This document shows, one piece after another, positions 37,361-41,551 of a DNA stretch of 64,000 bases (within the stretch, counting starts at the first letter, position 1; each line of letters opens with the position of its first letter). The notes under the pieces were generated by a model. It saw only the letters and a program-made list of their open reading frames with translations. It ran no database searches and was not told the DNA's origin. A program made the position numbers and the translations under genes. Origin of the DNA: a cyanobacterium PCC 7702. GTDB lineage: Bacteria > Cyanobacteriota > Cyanobacteriia > Cyanobacteriales > Nostocaceae. The DNA lies in contig KB235926.1 in NCBI GenBank assembly GCA_000332255.1, forward strand, positions 443,193 through 507,192, in the 5' to 3' direction.

Positions 37361-40300
37361 CTAACTGTTTTGAAAACTAGAAACTAAAAATTTATTTTCA
37401 CGCACCGCTACTTCCGCACCATGCATAATATGCAATCCCAAGCTTTTGTTATTAGTTAACATCAATTCATCTCTTTGTCGCCAAACGGCAAATATTTTTT
37501 CTCTTCCGTCCTCCAACTTTTTGGAATCGATTTGATAATATTCATCTACTTTTTTCAATTTCAATCCCAGTAATTTTAACAAGCGACCCAGTATATTCAC
37601 AGCAGAAATATTTTCATTTTTCCTAACTAAATTTATGCCAAGTATTCTTTGGATAGGTTTGCTGTAATATACTACAGTATTTTTTAATAACATTAAATCT
37701 GGGTCGTTTTCATTGAATTTTCGCTCTCTACCCAAAAAATTTAATACTCCTAAAGCTTTTAATACTTCTATTTTCAACGTATAATTTTTTAAATCTGGTA
37801 GAAAAACTTTTCCTTCACCTCCTATTAACTGTTCATATAATTGTTGCCTGTCTCTGCTTCGAAAATATTCGCTTTCATGAGTAAGGTAATAATGAGTTAA
37901 TAATTGCTCGTAATAACCTTTATCATCCCGCAATTTTAGTTCTGGAGTTACTTGAACTCCGTATTTTTGTTGCAGAGTATATTTGTGAATTCTATCGCGC
38001 TCCTGGTTTGTAAGGACATTTTTTGCCAGTAAACGTTCGTATTCTAAGTAACTAATATCTTCAGCACTAGCAACAGCATTCGCCGCTAAAAGTTGGTTTT
38101 TTTGTTTAATTTCTCTAAACTTGCGTTTAATTTCCTTAGCTTTTTTACGCTTTTGACACCAATCTTTTTGCACTTTAATAATTTCTCTAATCAGCCTTCT
38201 TTGAGTTGCTAAATCCTTGGGGTCTGTTGCTAAAAAAGCAAGGCGTAAATCTCTAATGATATTGTTGTGAGCTGCGTGACTGCGTATTTGAATTTTATGA
38301 CCATCATTAATTAAGCCATCTTGCATCGATTCGCGGTACAAGTTAATGGAAGCGTTCACCCTTGCTGCTAATTTTGCCCAAGTTCGCAAATGCACTGGAT
38401 CGTAAACTGAGGGGAAATCAACATCTATATCATAGAGGGGACTGAGGAGAGATAAATTTTCTTTTTGATTTTCTTGGTACCAATAAGATAGCAAGCGATA
38501 ATTGGTACTACCAGAGCCAATTAAACCGATACCGCGTTTAGCACACCAAACTATTCGCGGTACGTTATCGCGCACTCTTGCTAATGCTTGTCGTGCTTCT
38601 GAATCAGGAATCACTCCTTGAAAAATTCCGTAAACACAATCAAAATGTTGAACATCAATACTAATTCCCGTTCCCAAACTAGGAGTGACGAAAACAGCAT
38701 CATATGCAGTTACTTTTTGATTAATAGCTGCTATAAAATTAGCTGCTTCATGTCCCGGGGTATTGGTTGTGAGGCTAGTAATTAACAAAGTTTTAGGAAA
38801 TTGGTTTTGCAATCTTTGTAAACGCTCTTGCAGATAACTTGCTATAGTTTCACAACTGTAGCGTCCAGAACGACTGTCAGTCGTAACGTAGCATTTCTTT
38901 CCGGCAAGTAAATCTAATTCTAACTGGTGAATGAGGGGAGTTGGATTGGGAGAATCATAAAAAGTCACGTCCCAACCTTCCTGGGGTTTCCAAATATTTA
39001 CAATTATCCAAGGAGTTAATTTTATACCTGCTAATGCTTGTAAATATTCCAAAGATACATCTGATAAATCGGCATCTTGAGCAATGACTAACCCACCCGT
39101 AGTTATAACTTGAGAAATAAGTTGCTGAAAAATTTTTAAGATTTTGATGCGTTTTTCTTGACAAGTGCTGCTATTGAGTAAATGCCATAAAGATTGTTCC
39201 ACTTCATCTAAAATAACTATTGCTTTTTGCCATTTTTGAGGATCAAGTTTCCAAAGAGAATCCACACACAATCCCAAGGAATTGACAGAGAAAGAAGAAC
39301 CGCAGATAGACACAAACGGGGATATTAATTGAGAAATCTCCTCTGAAGCTGATTTTTCATTTTCTCCATCTTCTTTGCCAAGTCCCCACGGAATACCGAT
39401 TTTTTCACACAGAAATCGTCCGAGTTGGATTCTGTGAGTAATTAACAGAACTGGTTGATTTCTGCTTTTAGCCTGCTTGACAAGCGCTTGTAATGCTGTG
39501 GTTTTACCCGTTCCTTTGGCTGATTTAATTCCCACCAGTCCAGAGGGGGGAAAATTTATTTCTTCTAAGTAGCGACAGTTGAGGGTAACTGCAGGAGTGA
39601 TAGTTAATTTACTGTGGGGTTTGGTGTGAGCAAGATAAACTTCTAAATCCAGACTTTGGCGGTAAATTTTTTCAAAAGCGATCGCTCCTTTAGCAACAAT
39701 AAACTCATCAACTCCTTTTTCCATCCCCGGAAGTTCGATAACTTGCACGCAACAATTTTTCGCCTGAAATAAAAAACCGAGTTGAGAGATAGCGTTGTTT
39801 ACTGCTGCAATTTTCTGGGGTTGAGTTTCAAAGTCAAAGCAAATGTAAAACGTGCGCTTAGCGATCGCAAACGCAGCTAAGTCAGGTAAGAGCTGACGAG
39901 CGATCGCTTTACCAAATTTATCTTTCGTAACCCGATAACCGCTGGTAATTCCAGGAATACCAATAGCTGCATATCCCTGGGTTAAAAGCGCAGCAGCTTT
40001 TTTTGCACCCTCGCAAACAATCACCGGTATTTTCCCTTCCATTACCCATTGCCAAAAGCCCACAGCTTCGCCATTTTCGGCTATACTGATATTCTCAGGC
40101 ATAGCTTGATTGTAACGCCGGGCAACTTGCTGCCAAACACTCAAAGGTACTCGCAGACAAAATATTCGGGTTGGCGTGCAAGGAGGATGTTCGTATTTGA
40201 TGAACTTACCTTTTTGAGGATGTAATCGTGGTCGGTCTGGCTTAAAACATCCCCACTCCATCTGTTTCCAGTCATTTAAGGGATCTAATCCAGAACACCA

Positions 40301-40513
40301 CCAACCACCACAAGTAATAGCAGTGTAACGATGGAGCCAACTACTCTTGACCATTCCAGTGTTGGTACGCGGTAAGCGCTCAGAAATGAACAAATAATCG
40401 TAAACGCTTGCAGCTGAAAGAGAAATAAAGTTGAGTTGAGCTATGTGCTTATCTATACCGCTACCATTGACAATTTCTGCAAAATGTTGGGGTTCTAGAT
40501 AGTACAAATGCAT
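37361..40513 (-). CDS. CyRepA1-family plasmid replication protein, DUF3854 primase-helicase-like
   Basis: A large protein (1050 residues from ATG 40513; TTG 40537 is the alternative). Near the N-terminus is the family signature GGWWCSGLDPLNDW, followed by a DUF3854/Toprim-like region (VIVCEGAKKAAALLTQGY, then FYICFDFE). A P-loop ATPase domain comes next, with Walker A SAKGTGKTTA (Lys about residue 337), Walker B VILDEVEQS (Asp-Glu about 436-437) and later helicase-like blocks (FVTPSLGTGISIDV, ARQALARVRDN). The C-terminal third is basic and coiled. This matches the CyRepA1 group of cyanobacterial plasmid initiators, of which chromosomal copies also exist. No ParAB, relaxase or transposase gene adjoins it. 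It is intact, so it may be active. Confidence 0.8.
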   Translation of the reverse strand: MHLYYLEPQHFAEIVNGSGIDKHIAQLNFISLSAASVYDYLFISERLPRTNTGMVKSSWLHRYTAITCGGWWCSGLDPLNDWKQMEWGCFKPDRPRLHPQKGKFIKYEHPPCTPTRIFCLRVPLSVWQQVARRYNQAMPENISIAENGEAVGFWQWVMEGKIPVIVCEGAKKAAALLTQGYAAIGIPGITSGYRVTKDKFGKAIARQLLPDLAAFAIAKRTFYICFDFETQPQKIAAVNNAISQLGFLFQAKNCCVQVIELPGMEKGVDEFIVAKGAIAFEKIYRQSLDLEVYLAHTKPHSKLTITPAVTLNCRYLEEINFPPSGLVGIKSAKGTGKTTALQALVKQAKSRNQPVLLITHRIQLGRFLCEKIGIPWGLGKEDGENEKSASEEISQLISPFVSICGSSFSVNSLGLCVDSLWKLDPQKWQKAIVILDEVEQSLWHLLNSSTCQEKRIKILKIFQQLISQVITTGGLVIAQDADLSDVSLEYLQALAGIKLTPWIIVNIWKPQEGWDVTFYDSPNPTPLIHQLELDLLAGKKCYVTTDSRSGRYSCETIASYLQERLQRLQNQFPKTLLITSLTTNTPGHEAANFIAAINQKVTAYDAVFVTPSLGTGISIDVQHFDCVYGIFQGVIPDSEARQALARVRDNVPRIVWCAKRGIGLIGSGSTNYRLLSYWYQENQKENLSLLSPLYDIDVDFPSVYDPVHLRTWAKLAARVNASINLYRESMQDGLINDGHKIQIRSHAAHNNIIRDLRLAFLATDPKDLATQRRLIREIIKVQKDWCQKRKKAKEIKRKFREIKQKNQLLAANAVASAEDISYLEYERLLAKNVLTNQERDRIHKYTLQQKYGVQVTPELKLRDDKGYYEQLLTHYYLTHESEYFRSRDRQQLYEQLIGGEGKVFLPDLKNYTLKIEVLKALGVLNFLGRERKFNENDPDLMLLKNTVVYYSKPIQRILGINLVRKNENISAVNILGRLLKLLGLKLKKVDEYYQIDSKKLEDGREKIFAVWRQRDELMLTNNKSLGLHIMHGAEVAVRENKFLVSSFQNS

Positions 40514-40810
40514 TGGTAAGACCGAGAGAGGAGACAATGGATTTTACAAGTTAACATGCCTCTACTCGTTTTTTATAGAAGTTATTTTAACGCTTGCAAT
40601 TCGCTTTTCTTTTTCGGTGACCAGTGATACTACGGTTATAGTTCTGGCTAGTTTTTGTGTCCTTTTTGTCGTTCCAGTAATAAAATTGTATTGTGATTAT
40701 TAATACTAATACAACTTACTTATAAGTAATTTCACCCTGGCGCGAGTGATATCAACCTTGTTTGTGGAAGTAGCGATAATTAAATTTAAACTGTTAGCCG
40801 CAGTCAATTC

Positions 40811-41338
40811 TTAATCTTTCTTCTTGCTGTTTTCTTCCTCTATACTCTTACGCAGCTCGAGAAACTGCTTACCTGCTGCTGTAATTTTCACGTAATTGCA
40901 AAGGTTATTTCCTTTATAGGGTATGTCGCGAATTTCCTCTATCTCATCTATATAACCTAGATCTCGTAAAAAATATAATTCCCTTTCTAATTTCGCCGAT
41001 AAATCATAATTACCATAATCACCAGAGTTAATTTTTTGCAGAGTTTTATACATAGATTCTGGCATGGATAAGATATATAATCTATCCACCCTGTTCTTGG
41101 TGGTAGTCATTTTTTTGTTGAGAGAATTGATTTTATTTTCGATCTTATCCCGGTCTAAGGTTAGCGCAATTACATCATCCGCTCGCGGAAGAAAAAACAT
41201 TAATAAAGCAATAAAAATCAATGCTGCTATTATTAATACAGAACCGCGACCAGAAAATAACATCACCAATAAAATGCCTTCTATAAAGGCAAGACACGAA
41301 AAAGCAGCCCACCACTTTGTGGAGAATTCTTGAGTCAT
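40811..41338 (-). CDS. Membrane protein with coiled coil and winged-helix-like tail
   Basis: A protein of about 175 residues that I do not recognise. Two adjacent hydrophobic segments (WWAAFSCLAFIEGILLVMLF and VLIIAALIFIALLMFFL) form a membrane hairpin. A charged coiled coil (DKIENKINSLNKKMTTTKNRVDRLY) follows, then a domain with helix-helix-strand character (LSAKLERELYFLRDLGYIDEI, YVKITAAGKQFLELR) resembling a winged-helix fold used at interfaces. The start may be ATG 41338 or GTG 41341; GGGAGAG precedes both. It is co-directional with the CyRepA1-like gene, 297 bases upstream of it. Whether the two are linked functionally is unknown. Confidence 0.7.
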   Translation of the reverse strand: MTQEFSTKWWAAFSCLAFIEGILLVMLFSGRGSVLIIAALIFIALLMFFLPRADDVIALTLDRDKIENKINSLNKKMTTTKNRVDRLYILSMPESMYKTLQKINSGDYGNYDLSAKLERELYFLRDLGYIDEIEEIRDIPYKGNNLCNYVKITAAGKQFLELRKSIEEENSKKKD

Positions 41339-41551
41339 CACTTACTCTCCCATCTAGTTTCTAGAGAAGTATTTTCTTGGGAATAAATTTAATTATAGTT
41401 TTAATTGGCAGTGATAATAAAGCCAAAATTTGATGATGTCTTGATAATTTCACCATGGGAAAAAGTATAAATACTTAAAATATTTGCCACCAGAGAAAGT
41501 TTTTTTATTAATTACTAAATTCTCAAGAATTACAGATATCCCTAGAAATTA

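Follow-up and report, generated by a model that had tools for sequence, protein, structure and literature searches.

Slr7037, the CyRepA1 protein of the plasmid pSYSA, is reported to be needed for the autonomous replication or maintenance of that plasmid (PMC9978351), and chromosomal homologues of the CyRepA family have been counted in 80 of 145 cyanobacteria, with their function said to need validation (PMC10899382). Synechocystis and Nostoc are described as independent of DnaA, and dnaA has been lost repeatedly in symbionts, the substitute being left unnamed (PMC7198777). Here we describe a chromosomal CyRepA gene in a stretch of 64,000 nucleotides (the window, positions 443193-507192 of contig KB235926.1) from the cyanobacterium PCC 7702, a member of the Nostocaceae. 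The original prediction for this locus, made from the sequence alone, had offered three options: a fossil of plasmid integration, a very small integrated replicon and an alternative initiator of the chromosome. Our survey shows that the gene is real, belongs to an initiator family and has been chromosomal since ancient times. The encoded protein may be a domesticated Rep helicase-primase that acts in DnaA-independent initiation of the chromosome, probably at a conserved element of its own directly upstream of the gene, a reading that we regard as close to evenly balanced.

The open reading frame (ORF) at 37361-40537(-) begins with TTG; we set the start at the ATG at 40513, because the N-terminus from there on (MHL..L.PQH) is conserved among relatives, and this gives a protein of 1050 amino acids (aa). 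The translation of 37361-40513(-) contains GGWWCSGLDPLN, and both the Pfam DUF3854 and the NCBIfam CyRepA1 models match it above their cut-offs (Table 1). The gene belongs to the CyRepA family, and its description as intact holds. The order of domains, DUF3854 followed by the helicase, and the intact catalytic motifs are those of the family: the Toprim residues EG.KK, D227 and KGVD are the same in all 46 aligned relatives, and Toprim and helicase motifs alike are unchanged in all of these proteins, plasmid Reps among them. Profile and fold both point to a UL9-like helicase core. A profile of 37 relatives searched against the PDB found UL9-type origin-binding proteins (E = 4.6e-7, residues 328-497), and with the predicted structure of the 1050-aa protein (mean pLDDT, predicted local distance difference test, 82.6; pTM, predicted template-modelling score, 0.77) Foldseek put UL9 of herpes simplex virus 1 (HSV-1) in first place. 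VIA-align with the whole model gave UL9 a Z score of 21.7 over 535 residues (root-mean-square deviation 15.9, alignment covering residues 286-1033), the next being a generic helicase with 17.7. Among viral models (BFVD), the top rows, where named, are giant-virus and herpesvirus origin-binding proteins. PADLOC returned weak rows only, the best of them (E = 8.9e-5) to a DRT protein.

The chromosomal CyRepA of Nostocaceae is a core, single-copy, vertically inherited gene under purifying selection. An orthologue with 63-81% identity is found in 133 of 145 Nostocaceae genomes, the closest named relative being Chlorogloeopsis fritschii PCC 6912, and those orthologues that were fetched sit on contigs of 3.9-11.6 Mb. 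Genomes, loci, families and genera are cited below by our own labels (G, L, f and g). Twelve Nostocaceae have no orthologue (G007, G009, G013, G037, G044, G047, G069, G085, G105, G111, G119 and G134, of which G134 is only 54% complete), the frame is broken in G135, one of the 133, and G005 and G061 carry one stop each inside the aligned stretch. Further CyRepA copies in Nostocaceae genomes are plasmid-like and, where listed, 34-47% identical. Identity stays below 60% in all 449 plasmid records that match (about 40% for the best among the matches listed), and in the 40 phage records with a match the similarity is confined to the helicase part. Across 31 genomes the CyRepA and DnaA trees have 21 of 28 splits in common and their patristic distances are correlated (r = 0.889; 0 of 2000 permutations as high), with one pair of well-supported splits in conflict (G020, G049 and G114, on long branches) and CyRepA branches about 1.9 times as long as those of DnaA. 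Moreover, the ratio of nonsynonymous to synonymous substitution rates (dN/dS, by a Nei-Gojobori script) is 0.132 between the window copy and that of PCC 6912, and 0.081-0.215 across all eight pairs tried. An orthologue is also expected in Nostoc PCC 7120 and Synechocystis 6803.

Across 57 loci, a block of about 220 base pairs (bp) 5' of the ATG is strongly conserved and ends sharply on the left, the left part being replaced in L066, and the sequence 3' of the gene is not conserved (one column at >= 90% in 57 loci). In the 31 genomes these 220 bp have a mean pairwise identity of 0.587 with 58 columns at >= 90%, compared with 0.551 and 45 columns for the upstream region of dnaA (24 genomes) and 0.31 and 9 columns for that of queG, both taken as controls; over the next 220 bp identity is 0.184, with 0 columns at this level. 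A model of the element built on sequence only places it immediately upstream of CyRepA in all 80 named loci, some of which are from the same species as the training set of the model, and in 0 of 33 plasmid and other-clade loci. Nearly the full length is present in 72 of the 80 and the right half only in 8 (among Scytonema, Brasilonema and Tolypothrix). In the genome of PCC 7702 the model recognises one clear place (110.5 bits), a second one being at chance level (11.3 bits, E = 0.8), and ATCACAATACAATTTTATTA, the word with the highest conservation in the left half, has a single match in the window where 0.03 are expected. The element is probably also the operator and promoter by which the gene controls itself. 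An extended -10-like TGnTAAggTTTT was noticed before the ATG by eye only; a promoter scan of 40400-40900 found no match, and one weak terminator-like site lies at the left edge (0.5 expected). A structured or antisense RNA in the element, considered by analogy with pSYSA, was rejected: Rfam gave nothing up to E = 1, and neither strand yields a consensus fold.

The gene is also retained in most Nostocaceae that have lost dnaA. DnaA is absent from 8 of the 145 genomes (G013, G053, G062, G064, G087, G106, G120 and G136) and broken in 3 (G014, G063 and G082), and CyRepA is kept in 10 of these 11, two of which (G064 and G082) are under 90% complete. In addition, G490, a dnaA-less genome of the class sample only, has a CyRepA gene, and in family f5 six genomes without DnaA (G511, G512, G480, G506, G545 and G546) have an open CyRepA frame of 1015-1029 aa. 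All six are single contigs of 1.4-3.1 Mb, and in such reduced genomes there is no plasmid for CyRepA to serve. We take G512 (1,443,806 bp) to be UCYN-A (ALOHA), G480 (2,794,318 bp) to be the spheroid body of Epithemia turgida and G014 (main contig 5,354,700 bp) to be Nostoc azollae 0708; two of the six f5 genomes are apparently UCYN-A. UCYN-A, spheroid bodies and N. azollae are all reported to lack DnaA (PMC6315102; PMC7198777). As a separate observation, four of the five genomes of the nostocacean genus g53 (G053, G087, G106 and G120) give no DnaA match at 99% completeness; as far as the available text of PMC7198777 goes, dnaA-less free-living species are placed in another clade only.

The single copy, the retention in dnaA-less one-contig reduced genomes, the conserved upstream element and the origin-binding-helicase fold favour the alternative initiator among the options of the original prediction. 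An ancient plasmid-type initiator, combining the Toprim-like DUF3854 with a UL9-like helicase of superfamily 2 (SF2), would have passed into the chromosome ahead of the diversification of the Nostocaceae, and gene and element would have been inherited together since. The protein would bind the upstream element, its helicase would then open the DNA and the Toprim-like domain would lay the primer, resulting in DnaA-independent initiation that may be a backup where dnaA is present and possibly the main route where it is gone. More tentatively, and with modest confidence, we propose that chromosomal CyRepA could be the missing initiator of DnaA-independent cyanobacteria: lineages run by a plasmid-type helicase-primase could lose dnaA, and nitrogen-fixing symbionts and the organelle-like UCYN-A would start genome copying at its element.

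Several observations weigh against an initiator role. In the class sample (genomes of >= 90% completeness) a CyRepA match is present in 8 of 13 dnaA-less genomes and in 156 of 321 others, and the five dnaA-less genomes without any CyRepA (G294, G451, G485 and G509 of f8, and G013) include 4 of the 6 dnaA-less genomes of f8. CyRepA is therefore not a universal substitute. The losses of the two genes look independent among the 145 Nostocaceae, both being missing in one genome (G013) where about 0.9 are expected; mutual exclusion of CyRepA and DnaA was rejected on the same count. In 11 genomes, as worked out by hand, CyRepA and dnaA are separated by 0.01 to 0.47 of the chromosome length, and GC skew in G512 and G480 (20 samples of 20 kb each) is weak and irregular, with no extremum at CyRepA. 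Multi-site initiation is reported for Nostoc 7120 and Synechocystis (PMC7198777), and in Nostoc 7120 it is not predicted by a single-copy element. No iterons or significant internal repeats are found upstream of the gene in the window or in the Nostocaceae alignment. The C-terminal part of the protein searched alone (668-1025) gives no clear match and no UL9-like C-terminal domain, with weak winged-helix matches only (E above 0.6). G013 itself is one contig of 3.76 Mb with no DnaA or CyRepA match, and its genus-mate G062 keeps CyRepA; the lack of both genes in G013 implies a third way of initiation.

Table 1. Features of the CyRepA locus in the window (positions count from the first letter of the window).
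Feature	Position	Strand	Evidence or description
CDS (coding sequence) of the chromosomal CyRepA-family protein	37361..40513	-	1050 aa, ATG start
SF2-type helicase and C-terminal region, stretch of the CyRepA1 model	37550..39544	-	NCBIfam NF042913, 399.1 bits (curated cut-off 200)
Walker A motif SAKGTGKTT	39497..39523	-	GTGK invariant in 46/46
DUF3854 (Toprim-like, primase-type) domain	39683..40057	-	Pfam PF12965, 160.7 bits (cut-off 23)
Conserved upstream element, candidate origin and/or operator-promoter, moves with the gene	40516..40732	-	~217 bp
Most conserved word of the left half of the element, ATCACAATACAATTTTATTA	40678..40697	-	Alignment; window scan

The gene lies on the chromosome, since its contig makes up 4,895,220 of the 4,903,153 bp of the genome, in accordance with the chromosomal surroundings first proposed. 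The other three contigs are one of 3.9 kb with an ABC transporter and two of 2.4 and 1.7 kb that read as unknown letters. DnaA is encoded elsewhere on the main contig, and a DUF3854 search of the genome matches the window protein only. The eight neighbours scanned encode HyuA, HyuB, an M24 peptidase, a SnoaL/NTF2-like protein, a carotenoid-protein N-domain, QueG, a HAD hydrolase and a 176-aa protein without family; as predicted, none of the eight is a mobile, relaxase or partition gene, and no integrase or transposase was found among them. The att-like repeats, iterons and skew change that had been suggested as things to look for did not appear: repeats flanking the gene are no longer than in shuffled sequence, no iterons were detected upstream in the window, and the composition of the window has no clear skew switch at the gene. 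The 64-kb window contains no tRNA. The 176-aa protein (40811-41341), which is hydrophobic over a stretch at its N-terminus and matches no family, is linked to CyRepA in the window and in 4 of 20 relatives compared (L037-L040).

In the same-locus comparison that had been suggested, orthologues exist in relatives but do not sit at the same place. An ORF within 1.5 kb of CyRepA is common to 14 of 435 pairs of genomes on the upstream side and to 23 of 465 on the downstream side, whereas a neighbour of queG is common to 399 of 465 and 465 of 465 pairs, respectively, so that the neighbours are shared by 3-5% of Nostocaceae pairs as against 86-100% for QueG. For dnaA, the second of only two control genes, the counts are 253 of 253 upstream and 154 of 465 downstream, and for CyRepA in f5 they are 10 and 12 of 300. 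Outside the closest genera, gene order is not conserved enough to prove that the locus is the same.

Chromosomal CyRepA genes appear to form parallel clades. In a tree of 54 proteins, made by a quick method and with several long plasmid branches, the Nostocaceae copies are one clade (20 rows, support 100), families f30 and f38 a second (13 rows, support 100) and f2, f5 and f9 a third (8 rows, support 100), and the plasmid copies fall between the three. Second chromosomal copies in G131 (L176, G131:C1) and G049 (L177, G049:C3) group with Trichormus plasmid A, and therefore genuine plasmid integrations also occur. An orthologue at >= 54% identity is present in 48 of 50 f5 genomes, the exceptions being G363 (none) and G525 (79% complete, a distant one only); G396, G401, G527 and G537 have in-frame stops, and the gene is split in G533 and G389. 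The f5 upstream region carries TAGTGTTTT-type boxes, including the significant palindrome CAAACGCTAcaTATAGaGTTTG, around a promoter-like spot 40-110 bp upstream of the gene (L222-L241), and the boxes are still recognisable in the two smallest genomes. In f30, 10 of 10 loci have 3-7 upstream copies, in the same orientation, of TAAC[TG]NNNNCG[TG]A (one mismatch allowed; motif chosen after viewing the sequences), often spaced by 24, 26 or 34 bp. Compared with shuffles (means 0.35-0.55, maxima 2-4), the five loci with 6-7 copies are above expectation and those with 3-4 are not clearly so. These repeats are not found in three f38 loci. The 6-7 copies of L077, L078, L079, L080 and L180 lie within a long stretch without clear ORFs. 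Conserved non-coding DNA is the probable source of the upstream neighbour that seems common to 45 of 45 in f30, as L162 lacks an ORF of 80 aa at that place and the one in L077 measures 84 aa; the f30 upstream region shows no Rfam family in the four loci scanned.

The same domesticated protein could instead be a helicase-primase of general use, serving to restart replication or to replicate the polyploid chromosome in a recombination-dependent way, the element being promoter and operator only. This would fit the multi-site initiation of Nostoc 7120, a Nostocaceae element without iterons, the varying position of the gene and its retention where DnaA is gone. We nevertheless find it rather unlikely, because the closest characterised relative is a Rep that works with its own adjacent region, the sister clade f30 retains iteron-like repeats, and a promoter alone needs no element conserved at least as well as the region upstream of dnaA. 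Neighbours that are rarely shared between genomes in Nostocaceae and f5, compared with queG, and a conserved block with a sharp left edge and no downstream conservation would also suit a small self-mobile replicon, mostly chromosomal, whose excision and reinsertion would explain genus-specific neighbours despite a vertical tree. Such a replicon seems improbable: no integrase, transposase or flanking repeats were found around the gene, and it is single-copy with a tree that follows DnaA. The comparison of neighbours has two control genes only, and an active origin that often causes rearrangements beside it would give the same picture.

A role as trans-acting helper or incompatibility factor for co-resident plasmids, to which the catalytic motifs held in common with plasmid Reps might point, is very improbable given that the gene is kept in six single-contig genomes of 1.4-3.1 Mb and that PCC 7702 has no other DUF3854 match. 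The family name, the plasmid relatives and the plasmid-type second copies of G131 and G049 speak for a fossil of recent plasmid integration, which we nevertheless consider hardly credible. The window copy is outside the Trichormus plasmid A group, and the orthologue common to 133 of 145 genomes, the DnaA-like tree, purifying selection (dN/dS 0.13 against PCC 6912) and the lack of plasmid genes or integration marks contradict both the fossil and the very small integrated replicon as recent events. A core chromosomal gene of an initiator family, with a defined 217-bp element and retained in dnaA-less symbionts, opens initiation in cyanobacteria with dispensable or absent DnaA to direct tests in Nostocaceae that can be cultured. 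If the preferred role is true, the chromosome would clearly have taken over a plasmid function.

CyRepA copies on chromosomes have been published before, and the homologues of PMC10899382 are probably the same genes, at least in part; as far as its available text goes, that paper describes no single orthologue group, no upstream element and no presence in dnaA-less symbionts. Our literature search, with supplements and most subscription journals outside it, retrieved no publication that treats a chromosomal CyRepA orthologue group, the element upstream of it or a role in dnaA-less symbionts, and nothing on the mechanism of N15 RepA. The term DUF3854 reportedly also appears in work on novel fern plastome ORFs (PMC6220310).

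Among the known systems, DnaA resembles CyRepA as a near-universal, single-copy, vertically inherited chromosomal gene with a conserved upstream region in Nostocaceae, but the CyRepA protein is unrelated to it, has no fixed place near dnaA and is not kept in all cyanobacteria. UL9 of herpesviruses and its giant-virus relatives share the helicase by profile and fold; UL9 is not known to have a Toprim-like domain, and the C-terminal domain of the window protein, searched alone, has no match. The RepA proteins of the phages N15, PY54 and PhiKO2 (PHROG 4913), in which one large protein unites primase and helicase roles, match the helicase part (PHROG, 8.5e-40), but with about 22% identity over 43% of the query, and they belong to phage or linear plasmid-prophage replicons. 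The closest likeness is that to CyRepA1 (Slr7037) of pSYSA and its plasmid relatives, which share family score, domain order and catalytic motifs with the chromosomal protein, the slr7037 gene likewise being preceded by a regulatory or origin region (PMC9978351). In contrast to them, the window protein is about 34% identical to Slr7037, chromosomal, single-copy and vertically inherited, and its upstream element is unrelated to theirs (0 of 33 plasmid and other-clade loci) and has no RNA structure that we could find.

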